Virus record (IMG/VR): IMGVR_UViG_3300046009_002352
Coordinates: 1-52,245 of that record
From: a virus
DNA length: 52,245 nt
Reading direction: 5' to 3' (one strand)
The first letter of the stretch is position 1; every line of letters starts with the position of its first letter. Shown here piece by piece: positions 3 to 52,245 of this stretch. A program made the translations under genes and the position numbers. Under the pieces are notes generated by a model. The model saw nothing but the letters and a program-made list of their open reading frames with translations, had not been told where the DNA came from and did no database searches.

Positions 3-137
3 TACATGCACGATTGTGGATTAAAAATCACAATAAAAAAATTAGCTGAGCATTTTGGTTGTGCAATACGAACAATTCACCGTAACATGAGCAATGAATT
101 AAAAAAAGAAAAAGAAATCCTTAATCAAGAATTATGA
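3..137 (+). CDS. Partial or very short helix-turn-helix protein
   Basis: The frame is open from base 3 and ends at the TGA at 135-137. The first ATG is at base 6, giving 43 residues. A helix-turn-helix is visible: KKLAEHFGCAIRTIHRNM has the spacing of a DNA-binding HTH (helix, G-C turn, recognition helix with R-T-I-H-R), followed by a lysine/glutamate-rich tail. It is probably a small transcriptional regulator of the early arm. The stop overlaps the next start (ATGA). If the window is a closed circle, the ATG at 6 lies just after the mini-frame that starts at 52227, so this would be the first gene behind leader copy B. Otherwise the true start lies outside the window. The target is unknown. 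Confidence 0.6.
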   Translation, partial: YMHDCGLKITIKKLAEHFGCAIRTIHRNMSNELKKEKEILNQEL

Positions 138-3674: not shown

Positions 3675-3752
3675 ATCTATAATTAGTAATGTGCTTACAA
3701 TACAAACACGATAACAAAAAGATAATATAAACGTAACAATTAAATTATATAG

Positions 3753-5471
3753 ATGCAAACAACAGAGATAAATGGTTTTTTGATTGACCAATTCAATCAA
3801 TACAAACTTGAAGAAGGTAAGTCTCAAGGCGTTTGTCCTTTATGCTCAGCTGATAGAAAAGGAGAACACAAAAAAGCTAAATGCGCTTCTTATGATTGGG
3901 AACGTGGTCTTGGAACTTGTCATAATTGTAATAAGTCATTTCAGTTACATACTTATCAACGTAAAGGTTCTAGCGAAAAAGTGTATGTTAAACCACCTGC
4001 TAAAGAACAAGTTGAAGAAATGCAAATAAGTGAACCTGTTGCTAACTGGTTTGCGACACGAGGTATTTCTAAAGAAACTCTTTATGAATTACAAATATCC
4101 GAGGGAAAAGAATTTATGCCTCAAACAGGTAAAGAAGAAAATGTTATTCAATTCAATTATTTTATAGGTAATGATCTTGTCAATGTAAAATACAGAGATG
4201 GCAGAAAGAACTTTAAACTTTACAAAGGGGCAGAAAAAATATTTTACAACATCAACAGCATAGTCGGTTGGGACTACTGTATATTAGTTGAGGGAGAGAT
4301 GGATGTCTTAGCTCTTACTGAAGCAGGAATAACAAACGCTATTTCAGTACCTAATGGTGCGACACTACATACAAATAATTTAGAATACCTAGATAATTGT
4401 ATTGATTATTTTGATGACAAGAATAAAATAATCATTGCTGTAGACTCAGATGAAGCTGGGCAAGCATTACAATCTGAATTAATCAGAAGGCTAGGATCTG
4501 AAACTTGTTATATAGCAACGTTTGAAGATTGTAAAGATGCAAATGAATACTTATTAAAATATGGTAAAGAAGCTTTAGCTAATAGAATAGGTAAAGCAAA
4601 ACCTGTACCATTAGAAAATGTTACAACATTTAAAGACATAGAAGATGAAATTACGGACTTTGTTAGGAATGGTTTCAAACCTGGCTTCCAAGTTGGATTA
4701 CCTAATTTCGATGATATATTCAGCACTTATACTGGGCAGTTTATTACTGTTACTGGTGTGCCTAGTTCGGGCAAGTCTGATTTCGTTGATCAAATGGTTG
4801 TAGGCTACAATAAAAACTACGGTTGGAAAACAGCTTATGCTTCACCAGAAAATTCACCGACATATTTGCATGCTCATAAGTTAATGCGTAAAGTTTGGGA
4901 AGGTATGCCTACAGAAGCAGATATTTATTCTGAAAGATGGAATCAAGTTGCGGACCACGTTAATGATAACTTTTTCTTTATTGACATGGAACGTTATACA
5001 TTGGATTCTGTTTTAAAGAAAGCTGGCGAGCTTGTTAAGCGTAAAGGAATCAAGTGTCTTGTTATAGATCCATTTAATAAAGTTAGAGACACAAATGCTG
5101 AGTCAGCCGATATCAATGCTTATACATTAGAATATCTTACTAAGATTGAGATATTTGCTAAAAAGTATGATGTTCTTGTAATGATTGTTGCGCATCCTAC
5201 TAAAATGTATAAAGGCTCAGATGGTAAGATTGAAGAACCTACCATGTATAATATTAAAGGTGGAGGTGAATGGTATGATGCTTCTTATCACGGCTTATTA
5301 GTTCACAGAGATTACGAAAACAAAACTGTTAAAGTAAAAGTACTTAAGGTTAAGTTCCAGAATCTTGGTGAGAATGGCGCAGAATGTCATTTTATTTGGG
5401 AGCCAAAGTCAGGTTGCTTTATTCCACATATACCAATAGACGCATCTAATGATCGTATGCCGTGGGAATAA
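3753..5471 (+). CDS. T7 gp4-type bifunctional primase-helicase
   Basis: The protein has 572 residues, close to T7 gp4. The N-terminal zinc-binding domain has Cys28/Cys31 (CPLC) and Cys56/Cys59 (CHNC). The TOPRIM primase core follows: LVEGEMD at 178-184 and AVDSDEAG at 229-236. The DnaB/RecA-like helicase half has Walker A GVPSSGKS at 335-342, Walker B LVIDP at 436-440, and a VAHPTK motif at 479-484 with His481 in the usual sensor position. It would unwind DNA ahead of a polymerase and lay down primers at the fork. It is the first gene after the terminator at 3.67 kb and has its own AT-rich leader. No phage DNA polymerase is recognisable in the window, so it may work with a host polymerase. 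Confidence 0.92.
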   Translation: MQTTEINGFLIDQFNQYKLEEGKSQGVCPLCSADRKGEHKKAKCASYDWERGLGTCHNCNKSFQLHTYQRKGSSEKVYVKPPAKEQVEEMQISEPVANWFATRGISKETLYELQISEGKEFMPQTGKEENVIQFNYFIGNDLVNVKYRDGRKNFKLYKGAEKIFYNINSIVGWDYCILVEGEMDVLALTEAGITNAISVPNGATLHTNNLEYLDNCIDYFDDKNKIIIAVDSDEAGQALQSELIRRLGSETCYIATFEDCKDANEYLLKYGKEALANRIGKAKPVPLENVTTFKDIEDEITDFVRNGFKPGFQVGLPNFDDIFSTYTGQFITVTGVPSSGKSDFVDQMVVGYNKNYGWKTAYASPENSPTYLHAHKLMRKVWEGMPTEADIYSERWNQVADHVNDNFFFIDMERYTLDSVLKKAGELVKRKGIKCLVIDPFNKVRDTNAESADINAYTLEYLTKIEIFAKKYDVLVMIVAHPTKMYKGSDGKIEEPTMYNIKGGGEWYDASYHGLLVHRDYENKTVKVKVLKVKFQNLGENGAECHFIWEPKSGCFIPHIPIDASNDRMPWE

Positions 5472-51344: not shown

Positions 51345-51786
51345 AATACTCTTTTAATATAGTATATACAATTACGCATCGGATCAAAATCTTACAACCA
51401 AAACATACTAAATAATAGTGTGACAATAGCCTACTATTTATTTACTTAATTAGCTAACGTCACTATTTATATTTTATATTGCAATACGGGATATGTGAAA
51501 ATATTGCATCAGATATATGGAACTAAGGGGTTATATACTACGTTCAGCTACAGCTTTCTGAAAAGAAAATGAATCTGTTTTAACCACCCCCGGGCGTATA
51601 AATTGAAATTGTTGGAAATGTTTTGCCTTTTCCGTTTGTAAATATGTAATGGTTTAGATATGCTAGGGATTGTACTGGACTTGCATCGTGCATGTTCATA
51701 CGTCTGTACCGTGATGTGATACACTTGTGCTGCGTTTGTATACGTTCGTTACATTGGGTTGTGTACCGATACATTACATACAACAA
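51345..51786. promoter_or_regulatory. Divergent non-coding region with nested inverted repeats; possible promoters/origin
   Basis: About 440 bp have no convincing gene; it separates the minus-strand late arm from the plus-strand early arm. An imperfect inverted repeat AATAGTGTGAC (51414-51424) / GTCACTATT (51459-51467) encloses a second hairpin AATAG-CCTA-CTATT (51425-51438), and TGCAATA (51480-51486) faces TATTGCA (51502-51508). A GC-richer CCACCCCCGGGCG lies near 51583. It must contain divergent promoters and could hold the replication origin. I could not find clean consensus promoters (TAnnTTTG) on either strand. Confidence 0.45.
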
Positions 51787-51858
51787 CACTTGCGGAGCGT
51801 AGCGTAGCATGTATAGCATACAGTAATAATACGGAGTGATTATGATAATATATATGAA
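51787..51858 (+). repeat. Leader repeat copy A
   Basis: Copy A shares CACTTGCGG, TGTATAGCATACAG, ACGGAG and TGATAATATATATGAA with copy B at 52174-52231 in the same order. Copy A holds an extra 14 bp (AGCGTAGCGTAGCA) after CACTTGCGG. Both end in an ATG. It is probably a duplicated promoter/operator/leader module for the early arm. Confidence 0.75.
51810..51822 (+). promoter_or_regulatory. Operator-like dyad TGTAT-AGC-ATACA (copy A)
   Basis: This perfect 5-bp inverted repeat with a 3-nt spacer lies about 32 bp before the ATG at 51854. The same 13 bp recur in leader copy B. It is a plausible repressor or activator site, perhaps for one of the phage HTH proteins. Confidence 0.5.
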
Positions 51859-51883
51859 TAAAGAAATTAATAATAATAAATAA
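51854..51883 (+). CDS. Mini-ORF (MNKEINNNK), possible leader peptide
   Basis: The ATG at the end of leader copy A opens nine codons (MNKEINNNK) ending in TAA at 51881-51883, ten bases before the ATG of the next gene. Leader copy B is followed by a similar short frame. It may be a translated leader controlling the next gene, or chance in AT-rich DNA. Confidence 0.3.
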   Translation: MNKEINNNK

Positions 51884-51893
51884 ATAAATAACT

Positions 51894-52085
51894 ATGATGA
51901 ATTTAATTAAAACAGAACTTTACATTAATGATCTTAAAGATCTATCAAAAGAAGAATTATTAGACTATATGAAAGAATACTGTTATTCTAGTTTTTCAGA
52001 AGATATTGAATATACTGAAGAAGAGATAGATAATGGATTCTTTGTTACAGAATTAGAATCAATAAGAAATTCAGTATTTAGTTAA
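51894..52085 (+). CDS. Small acidic early protein (63 aa)
   Basis: The start ATGATGAATTTAATT lies after leader copy A. The protein is acidic and helical: LIKTELYINDLKDLSKEELL, then CYSSFSEDIEYTEEEIDNG and a tail LESIRNSVFS. It could be a DNA mimic or host-takeover protein because it is small, acidic and first in the early arm, but no family is recognised. It is followed by a hairpin terminator at 52103-52122. Confidence 0.6.
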   Translation: MMNLIKTELYINDLKDLSKEELLDYMKEYCYSSFSEDIEYTEEEIDNGFFVTELESIRNSVFS

Positions 52086-52102
52086 CTGAGTTATATCTTA
52101 AT

Positions 52103-52122
52103 AAGGTCCCTTCAGGGATCTT
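52103..52122 (+). terminator. Probable terminator or attenuator
   Basis: AAGGTCCC pairs with GGGATCTT (eight pairs, one G-U) over a TTCA loop, followed by TACTC, a poor U-tract. It ends the small acidic gene and precedes leader copy B. Confidence 0.55.
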
Positions 52123-52173
52123 TACTCTACCTAAGGTGGAATGGACAGGGAGAGGTGTGCTTAGTCCGCATAC

Positions 52174-52231
52174 CACTTGCGGTGTATAGCATACAGTCTT
52201 AACACGGAGAGTAATTGATAATATATATGAA
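52174..52231 (+). repeat. Leader repeat copy B
   Basis: CACTTGCGG-TGTATAGCATACAG-(T/C)TTAA-ACGGAG-TGATAATATATATGAA repeats the leader of copy A without its 14-bp insertion. It drives the next reading frame, which is cut by the window end. A preceding stem GGTGTGC (52154-52160) / GCATACC (52168-52174) competes with the dyad in copy B. Confidence 0.75.
52183..52195 (+). promoter_or_regulatory. Operator-like dyad TGTAT-AGC-ATACA (copy B)
   Basis: This is identical to the dyad in copy A and lies about 32 bp before the ATG at 52227. Conservation of dyad, spacing and ATG in both leaders suggests a shared regulator. Confidence 0.5.
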
Positions 52232-52245
52232 GTTAAAAAGTAATT
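52227..52245 (+). CDS. Start of a frame cut by the window end
   Basis: ATG AAG TTA AAA AGT AAT T follows leader copy B. If the window is a circle, the last T joins AA at bases 1-2 to make TAA, so the frame would be only six codons (MKLKSN) and the HTH gene would start at base 6. If the window is a fragment, this is the N-terminus of a longer gene. Confidence 0.35.

Follow-up and report, generated by a model that had tools for sequence, protein, structure and literature searches.

A putative lineage-specific promoter in Bacteroidota podovirus-like phages, with a phage sigma factor as its candidate reader

Two similar stretches at the right end of a 52,245-base virus record classed as linear (the window, i.e., the whole stretch of DNA that was analyzed) are very probably two copies of one promoter, and the tiny reading frames and the short dyad that accompany them would be by-products of it. 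The explanation as a whole, to which we assign a probability of roughly 0.78, is a lineage-specific phage promoter that is most likely read by a phage sigma factor on host RNA polymerase. Both the identity of the promoter and the position of its +1 are what we infer from sequence comparison across related viral contigs. The window encodes an Erf-like annealing protein, an exonuclease, a primase/helicase, thymidylate synthase, ribonucleotide reductase, GroEL/GroES, and a terminase related to those of Flavobacterium elemoviruses and Cellulophaga phages. A DNA-level search of GenBank phages with the repeat region returned no match.

Repeated stretches and the bipartite motif

The two copies (A, 51787-51858, and B, 52174-52231) share an ungapped repeat of 62 nt with 79% identity, in which CACTTGCGG, TGTATAGCATACA, ACGGAG, and TGATAATATATATGAA follow one another in the same order. 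The exact dyad TGTATAGCATACA (TGTAT-AGC-ATACA) occurs at these two places only in the whole window. The duplication and the order of its elements are therefore real, as stated in a preliminary description of this DNA, which took the stretches for leaders with an operator dyad and mini-ORFs that form a transcriptional or translational control module for early genes. Repeat and dyad are indeed present and phage-specific transcriptional control was retained, but a promoter takes the place of the leader and the translational part was dropped. ACGGAG, rather than being a ribosome-binding site, is the local form of the TACGA box of the promoter; flavobacteria initiate translation without Shine-Dalgarno sequences (PMC6847099).

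With the sigma-factor gene and the 63-aa gene as queries, 83 loci were collected from viral contigs, in which the TGATAATATATATG part recurs dozens of times with a second block always one distance upstream. The alignment of 168 sites from related viral contigs gave the bipartite motif TTACA(A/G)nnTAAA(T/C)ACGA-N9-GATAATATAAATR with a near-fixed spacer and an upstream block (-37 to -22) that is longer than an ordinary -35 box. On the sigma strand, 171 of about 190 seed pairs had the spacing ACG-N10-GATAATA; on the other strand no pair did. Conservation of ACG and ATAAT follows from the seed, which fixed them; the TTACA block, the G that precedes ATAAT, and a purine at +25 are conserved without having been seeded. 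An unbiased count of gapped words in the early region of one relative placed TACA-21-GATA (16 versus 1), TACG-13-AATA, and neighbouring pairs at the top.

Scores were two-peaked, with sites above 15 and otherwise almost nothing. When the window was scored with a matrix that excluded its own sites, copies A and B reached 30.1 and 36.9 bits, respectively, whereas the best of 20 dinucleotide shuffles gave 11.0. A third instance at 3708, which the preliminary description had missed, scored 37.0 bits and lacks the dyad. Several lineages carry variants of the boxes, i.e., GATATTA (G030), ACGT/TACGT (G026), ATAA for ACGA (G043), CACGGACTTA (G032/G039), and ACAA (G025/G027), and each lineage repeats its own variant over its own sites, as expected of one trans-acting reader. 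No description of the motif was found in the open, non-subscription literature.

Promoter sites and predicted start sites

All three sites of the window (3708, 51831, and 52204) lie on the + strand and score 30-37 bits (Table 1). Site 51831 (promoter A) has homologous promoters in relatives, while the homologues of site 52204 (promoter B), whose gene lies beyond the window end, were located at G001 26762, G003 4397, and G046 15746. Site 3708 (promoter C) is found upstream of the primase/helicase gene. Seven close relatives were compared, six of 61-67 kb and one 42-kb fragment (G001). The check proposed in the preliminary description, a search for conserved copies in related phage genomes, recovered the motif at 12-16 sites in each, all on the strand of the sigma gene and, with few exceptions, in the early region, between the sigma gene and the divergent control region. 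In 1.56 Mb of fetched sequence, with overlapping loci counted, 348 matches fell on the sigma strand versus 2 on the other, and two sister phages without the sigma factor had zero sites.

Table 1. Features of the window; promoters and their +1 positions are predicted.
Feature	Position	Strand	Details
43-aa HTH protein	6..137	+	in relatives not adjacent to copy B
Phage sigma-70-family factor, 254 aa	839..1603	+	phrog_351, E 3e-19; candidate promoter reader
Promoter C	3695..3733	+	no dyad; GATAAT 3721-3726; predicted +1 G3733; 20-nt leader
DNA primase/helicase, gene of promoter C	3753..5471	+	phrog_239, E 7e-91
TGTATAGC early-region repeat	51810..51817	+	left half of reported dyad; adjoins promoter A
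Promoter A	51818..51856	+	cATACAGTAATAATACGG 51818-51834; N9; -10-like GATAAT 51844-51849; predicted +1 G51856
9-codon frame after copy A	51854..51883	+	ATG 51854; TAA 51881-51883; ends ten bases before ATG 51894
63-aa early gene, under promoter A	51894..52085	+	predicted leader 38 nt; relatives 95, 93, and 60% identical
Terminator-like hairpin AAGGTCCC-TTCA-GGGATCTT	52103..52122	+	between 63-aa gene and promoter B; similar, same place in relatives
TGTATAGC early-region repeat	52183..52190	+	adjoins promoter B
Promoter B	52191..52229	+	cATACAGTCTTAACACGG; N9; GATAAT 52217-52222; predicted +1 G52229

The low number of sites in the window is to be read together with its ends. HTH and sigma homologues were located in the six relatives that carry both flanking genes (G001, G002, G003, G008, G012, and G044), and the HTH gene was found about 10-13 kb downstream of the homologues of the genes at the right end of the window; in G044, the 63-aa gene itself lies 8.6 kb from it. 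The homologue of copy B in relatives continues as GAAGTTAAAAAGTAATAATAATAAT... and not into the HTH gene. By this comparison the ends of the window are not joined, and roughly 9-12 kb is estimated to be absent between them, which the 61-67 kb lengths of the relatives also fit. Most of the expected early promoters fall in this absent stretch. The circular join that had been assumed is thus contradicted by the linear record and by the distance between the flanking genes, and with it falls the 6-codon mini-ORF of copy B reaching the HTH gene at base 6, which is an end artefact.

Of 286 unique sites, 284 have a purine at the predicted +1, 7 nt after GATAAT. Sites are intergenic, with only 10 of 286 found within a longer ORF. 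The start codon of the next ORF follows 19-22 nt downstream of the predicted +1 in 81 sites and coincides exactly with it in 24, mostly in one set of lineages; such an ATG was seen in G028 (L124-L127), G035, L052, and others. This suggests that these lineages may use leaderless mRNAs routinely. In F. psychrophilum, leaderless mRNAs are a small minority of 5.5% (PMC6847099, PMC9723704).

Host promoters in Bacteroidota have the form TTTG/TAnnTTTG (PMC6847099, PMC9723704). The phage motif resembles these sigmaA promoters in the distance from the -12 base to the start and in having leaders that are some tens of nt long and lack a Shine-Dalgarno sequence, but differs in its boxes, as the consensus at -12 to -5 is GATAATAT instead of TAnnTTTG and there is no TTTG near -33. 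Host-type promoters were also sought directly, and a scan for TTTG-N18-22-TAnnTTTG yielded a few scattered matches but, within the divergent region, no match at a common position; this candidate was rejected. Taken together, the motif is with high probability a lineage-specific phage promoter, in which transcription would begin at the purine 7 nt after GATAAT and each copy would give rise to a short RNA covering one early gene or a few.

The sigma factor as candidate reader

The sigma-70-family factor matched Pfam Sigma70_r2 with 24.2 bits, over the cut-off, and was found once per genome in 9 of 9 genomes, while no separate Pfam match covered region 4. Its predicted fold (mean pLDDT 76.8, pTM 0.47) matches sigmaA, sigma70, sigmaS, and sigma28; residues 5-254 of the model align with sigmaA, sigma70, and sigmaS with Z up to 13.2, and region 2 alone with 2.0 Å rmsd. 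The protein is 59-90% identical across the group, and no relative of it was found among GenBank phages at E 1e-5. Among records selected by the motif alone, 24 of 31 carried the sigma gene; in the other 7 the motif cluster lies at a contig end, and the contig stops before the sigma side is reached. One conserved sigma factor is encoded in every record that has the motif and extends over the sigma locus.

In the sequences compared, the motif was present only where the sigma factor was present, which is an association and not proof because the relatives share ancestry; the two may track each other only through common clade membership. A partial Mantel test of sigma region 4.2 against the promoter gave no covariation beyond overall sigma divergence (p 0.28). 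Where residue 236 is Q, TACA was found in 84% of 246 sites, and where it is E, in 10% of 21, a post hoc comparison from few lineages. From an alignment made by eye, we infer that an Arg at the position of T440 of E. coli sigma70 faces the G at -12.

That this phage sigma factor reads the motif is accordingly regarded as probable, with less assurance than the promoter itself. Host RNA polymerase carrying the phage sigma would read the promoters, with region 2 contacting GATAAT and region 4 contacting the TTACA block, and the early region would thereby form a self-reinforcing regulon. The sigma gene itself sits in the region served by these promoters, and something else must therefore start its expression. 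More tentatively, and at somewhat less than even odds, the sigma regulon would run the early and not the late programme, comprising at least a dozen mostly single-gene promoters and a dedicated small non-coding RNA, with leaderless starts in some lineages and boxes drifting in concert per lineage.

The nearest known systems are the phiEco32-like phages (phi32_gp36; SaPh711_gp47 of phage 7-11), which likewise have a conserved phage-specific motif, a sigma factor of their own, start sites 6-9 bp from the element, and low-copy intergenic sites (PMC8948821, PMC4331800). However, these phages have 6-8 middle or late promoters with a single element, tAATGTAtA or GTAAtg-16-aCTA, whereas the 12-16 sites found here mostly serve early-region genes one by one and consist of an upstream block of 16 nt, the N9 spacer, and GATAATATA.

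This comparison also supplies the best-surviving alternative, in which the phage promoter is read by something other than the phage sigma, i.e., a host alternative sigma, a factor carried in the virion, or an HTH co-activator, with the phage sigma acting on the late operon in the manner of phiEco32-like phages. Such a division is known from phage 7-11, whose late genes depend on the phage sigma and whose early genes are transcribed with host sigma70 (PMC8948821). It would also agree with a different conserved element, ATGCGTRATNGTATATACTATA, found at the head of the late operon both in the window and in its close relatives, and with the 43-aa HTH gene conserved near sigma in complete relatives. 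Yet the early motif does not look like the TTTG/TAnnTTTG promoter of the host (PMC6847099), an exact copy of the late element could not be found in several of the inspected lineages with the sigma factor (for some, early regions only), and motif and sigma co-occur without exception where testable. Reading by another factor is thus considered unlikely, though it keeps a real share of the probability.

Dyad and small reading frames

The proposal that an operator dyad, a leader, and a mini-ORF together control translation or transcription draws on the exact dyad and on the ATG at the same place in both copies, and it was correctly noted that the 9-codon frame of copy A ends ten bases before a real gene. 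However, the exact dyad was retained at only 9 of 136 promoters, which speaks against an operator. It arises where the 8-mer TGTATAGC abuts the (T)ACAG of the promoter; a promoter reading TTACAG breaks the palindrome, as do ATAGCATTTACAG and ATAGCACTTACAG. The mini-ORF ATG spans -2 to +1 of the predicted start site and would therefore not be on the RNA. Neither start codon nor frame is conserved, as a stop follows the ATG directly in 83 of the 130 sites that have it and the other frames scatter from 1 to 11 codons, and the 9-codon frame is judged to be untranslated. What follows some copies is a conserved non-coding element without any ORF, so that the module is not a translational leader. Together with the end artefact at copy B, this makes control by dyad, leader, and mini-ORF very improbable.

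The 8-mer was also observed as a repeat in its own right. In G003, GTATAGCA/TGCTATAC occurred 15 times in the 12.7 kb early region versus once in 48.9 kb. Its enrichment in both orientations was seen in the early regions of G001, G002, G003, G008, G012, and G044, with copies near promoters and also inside ORFs.

Still less probable is an N4-like promoter in which the TGTAT-AGC-ATACA hairpin is recognized by a virion RNA polymerase, as the early-region hairpin (5-bp stem, 3-nt loop) and a 2965-aa ORF on the late strand would allow, but the hairpin is missing from most motif copies and pieces of the 2965-aa ORF had no RNA polymerase match in PHROGs. The Pfam model of single-subunit polymerases gave no match in 9 genomes, with its controls silent too. 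A T7-like promoter was rejected, since the TAAATACGA block resembles TAATACGA of T7 by eye but the spacing differs, and the Pfam search just described, with its silent controls, turned up no polymerase of this type. A structured RNA leader was also rejected: folding of the promoter A region was no better than that of shuffles (z +1.6), that of the copy B region was slightly better (z -1.8), and Rfam gave no match in the window or relatives.

Repeats of another kind were found in the sister phage MW202828, where the palindrome TGTCGTTAACGACA occurs about 15 times in the early region (L093/L094, 43746-55155). These are likewise early-region repeats, several of them 31-38 nt upstream of annotated genes, but they are perfect palindromes with no promoter-like second box, some lie inside genes, and the phage lacks the sigma factor. 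The palindrome is operator- or stoperator-like and a different element from the promoter motif. An alternative early motif was also sought in an elemovirus, with nothing clear found.

Neighbouring elements

Downstream of the first early gene and ahead of the next promoter, the terminator-like hairpin is followed by a conserved ACTCTGCnnnnGCGGAATGGACAGGCGGAGC (window 52103-52155), and the same pair was found at G008 49784, G002 28354, G044 50627, G045 18385, and G046 15680. By eye, the ACTCTGCnnnnGCGGAATGGACAGGCGGAGC element recalls the D-arm of tRNA-Leu. A conserved non-coding element of about 42 nt, GGCCTGGCTTTGAAATARNGTCGGAAGAGTAGACTCCGTCCTAC, was found in 20 copies in 19 records (L147-L166) and not in the window, mostly once per genome, in the early region, and on the sigma strand. 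Many of its copies begin where a phage promoter has its predicted +1, and a GTGTGAC...GTCACACTTTT terminator comes after some of them. Rfam gave no match to it, and it is a candidate phage small RNA, or an ori or packaging site.

On the other side of the divergent region, ATGCGTRATNGTATATACTATA lies just upstream of the first late-strand gene (window 51358-51379, - strand) and at the same place in G001, G003, G012, G008, G002, G045, and G046; it is a candidate for a single late promoter. A GTGTGACAATAGCC...GTCAC hairpin in the divergent region (51418-51463) resembles the terminators that follow the non-coding element in relatives.

Implications

E. coli promoters fail in flavobacteria. These Bacteroidota podovirus-like phages form a large group, most of it uncultured, for which the motif offers a sharp and testable promoter sequence together with predicted start sites and early genes. 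These phage promoters would ignore the unusual consensus of the host and are paired with one conserved sigma factor, and the natural variants of both boxes and protein may serve as a source for rules of sigma-DNA recognition. Work on flavobacteria would also gain a phage-specific expression tool.
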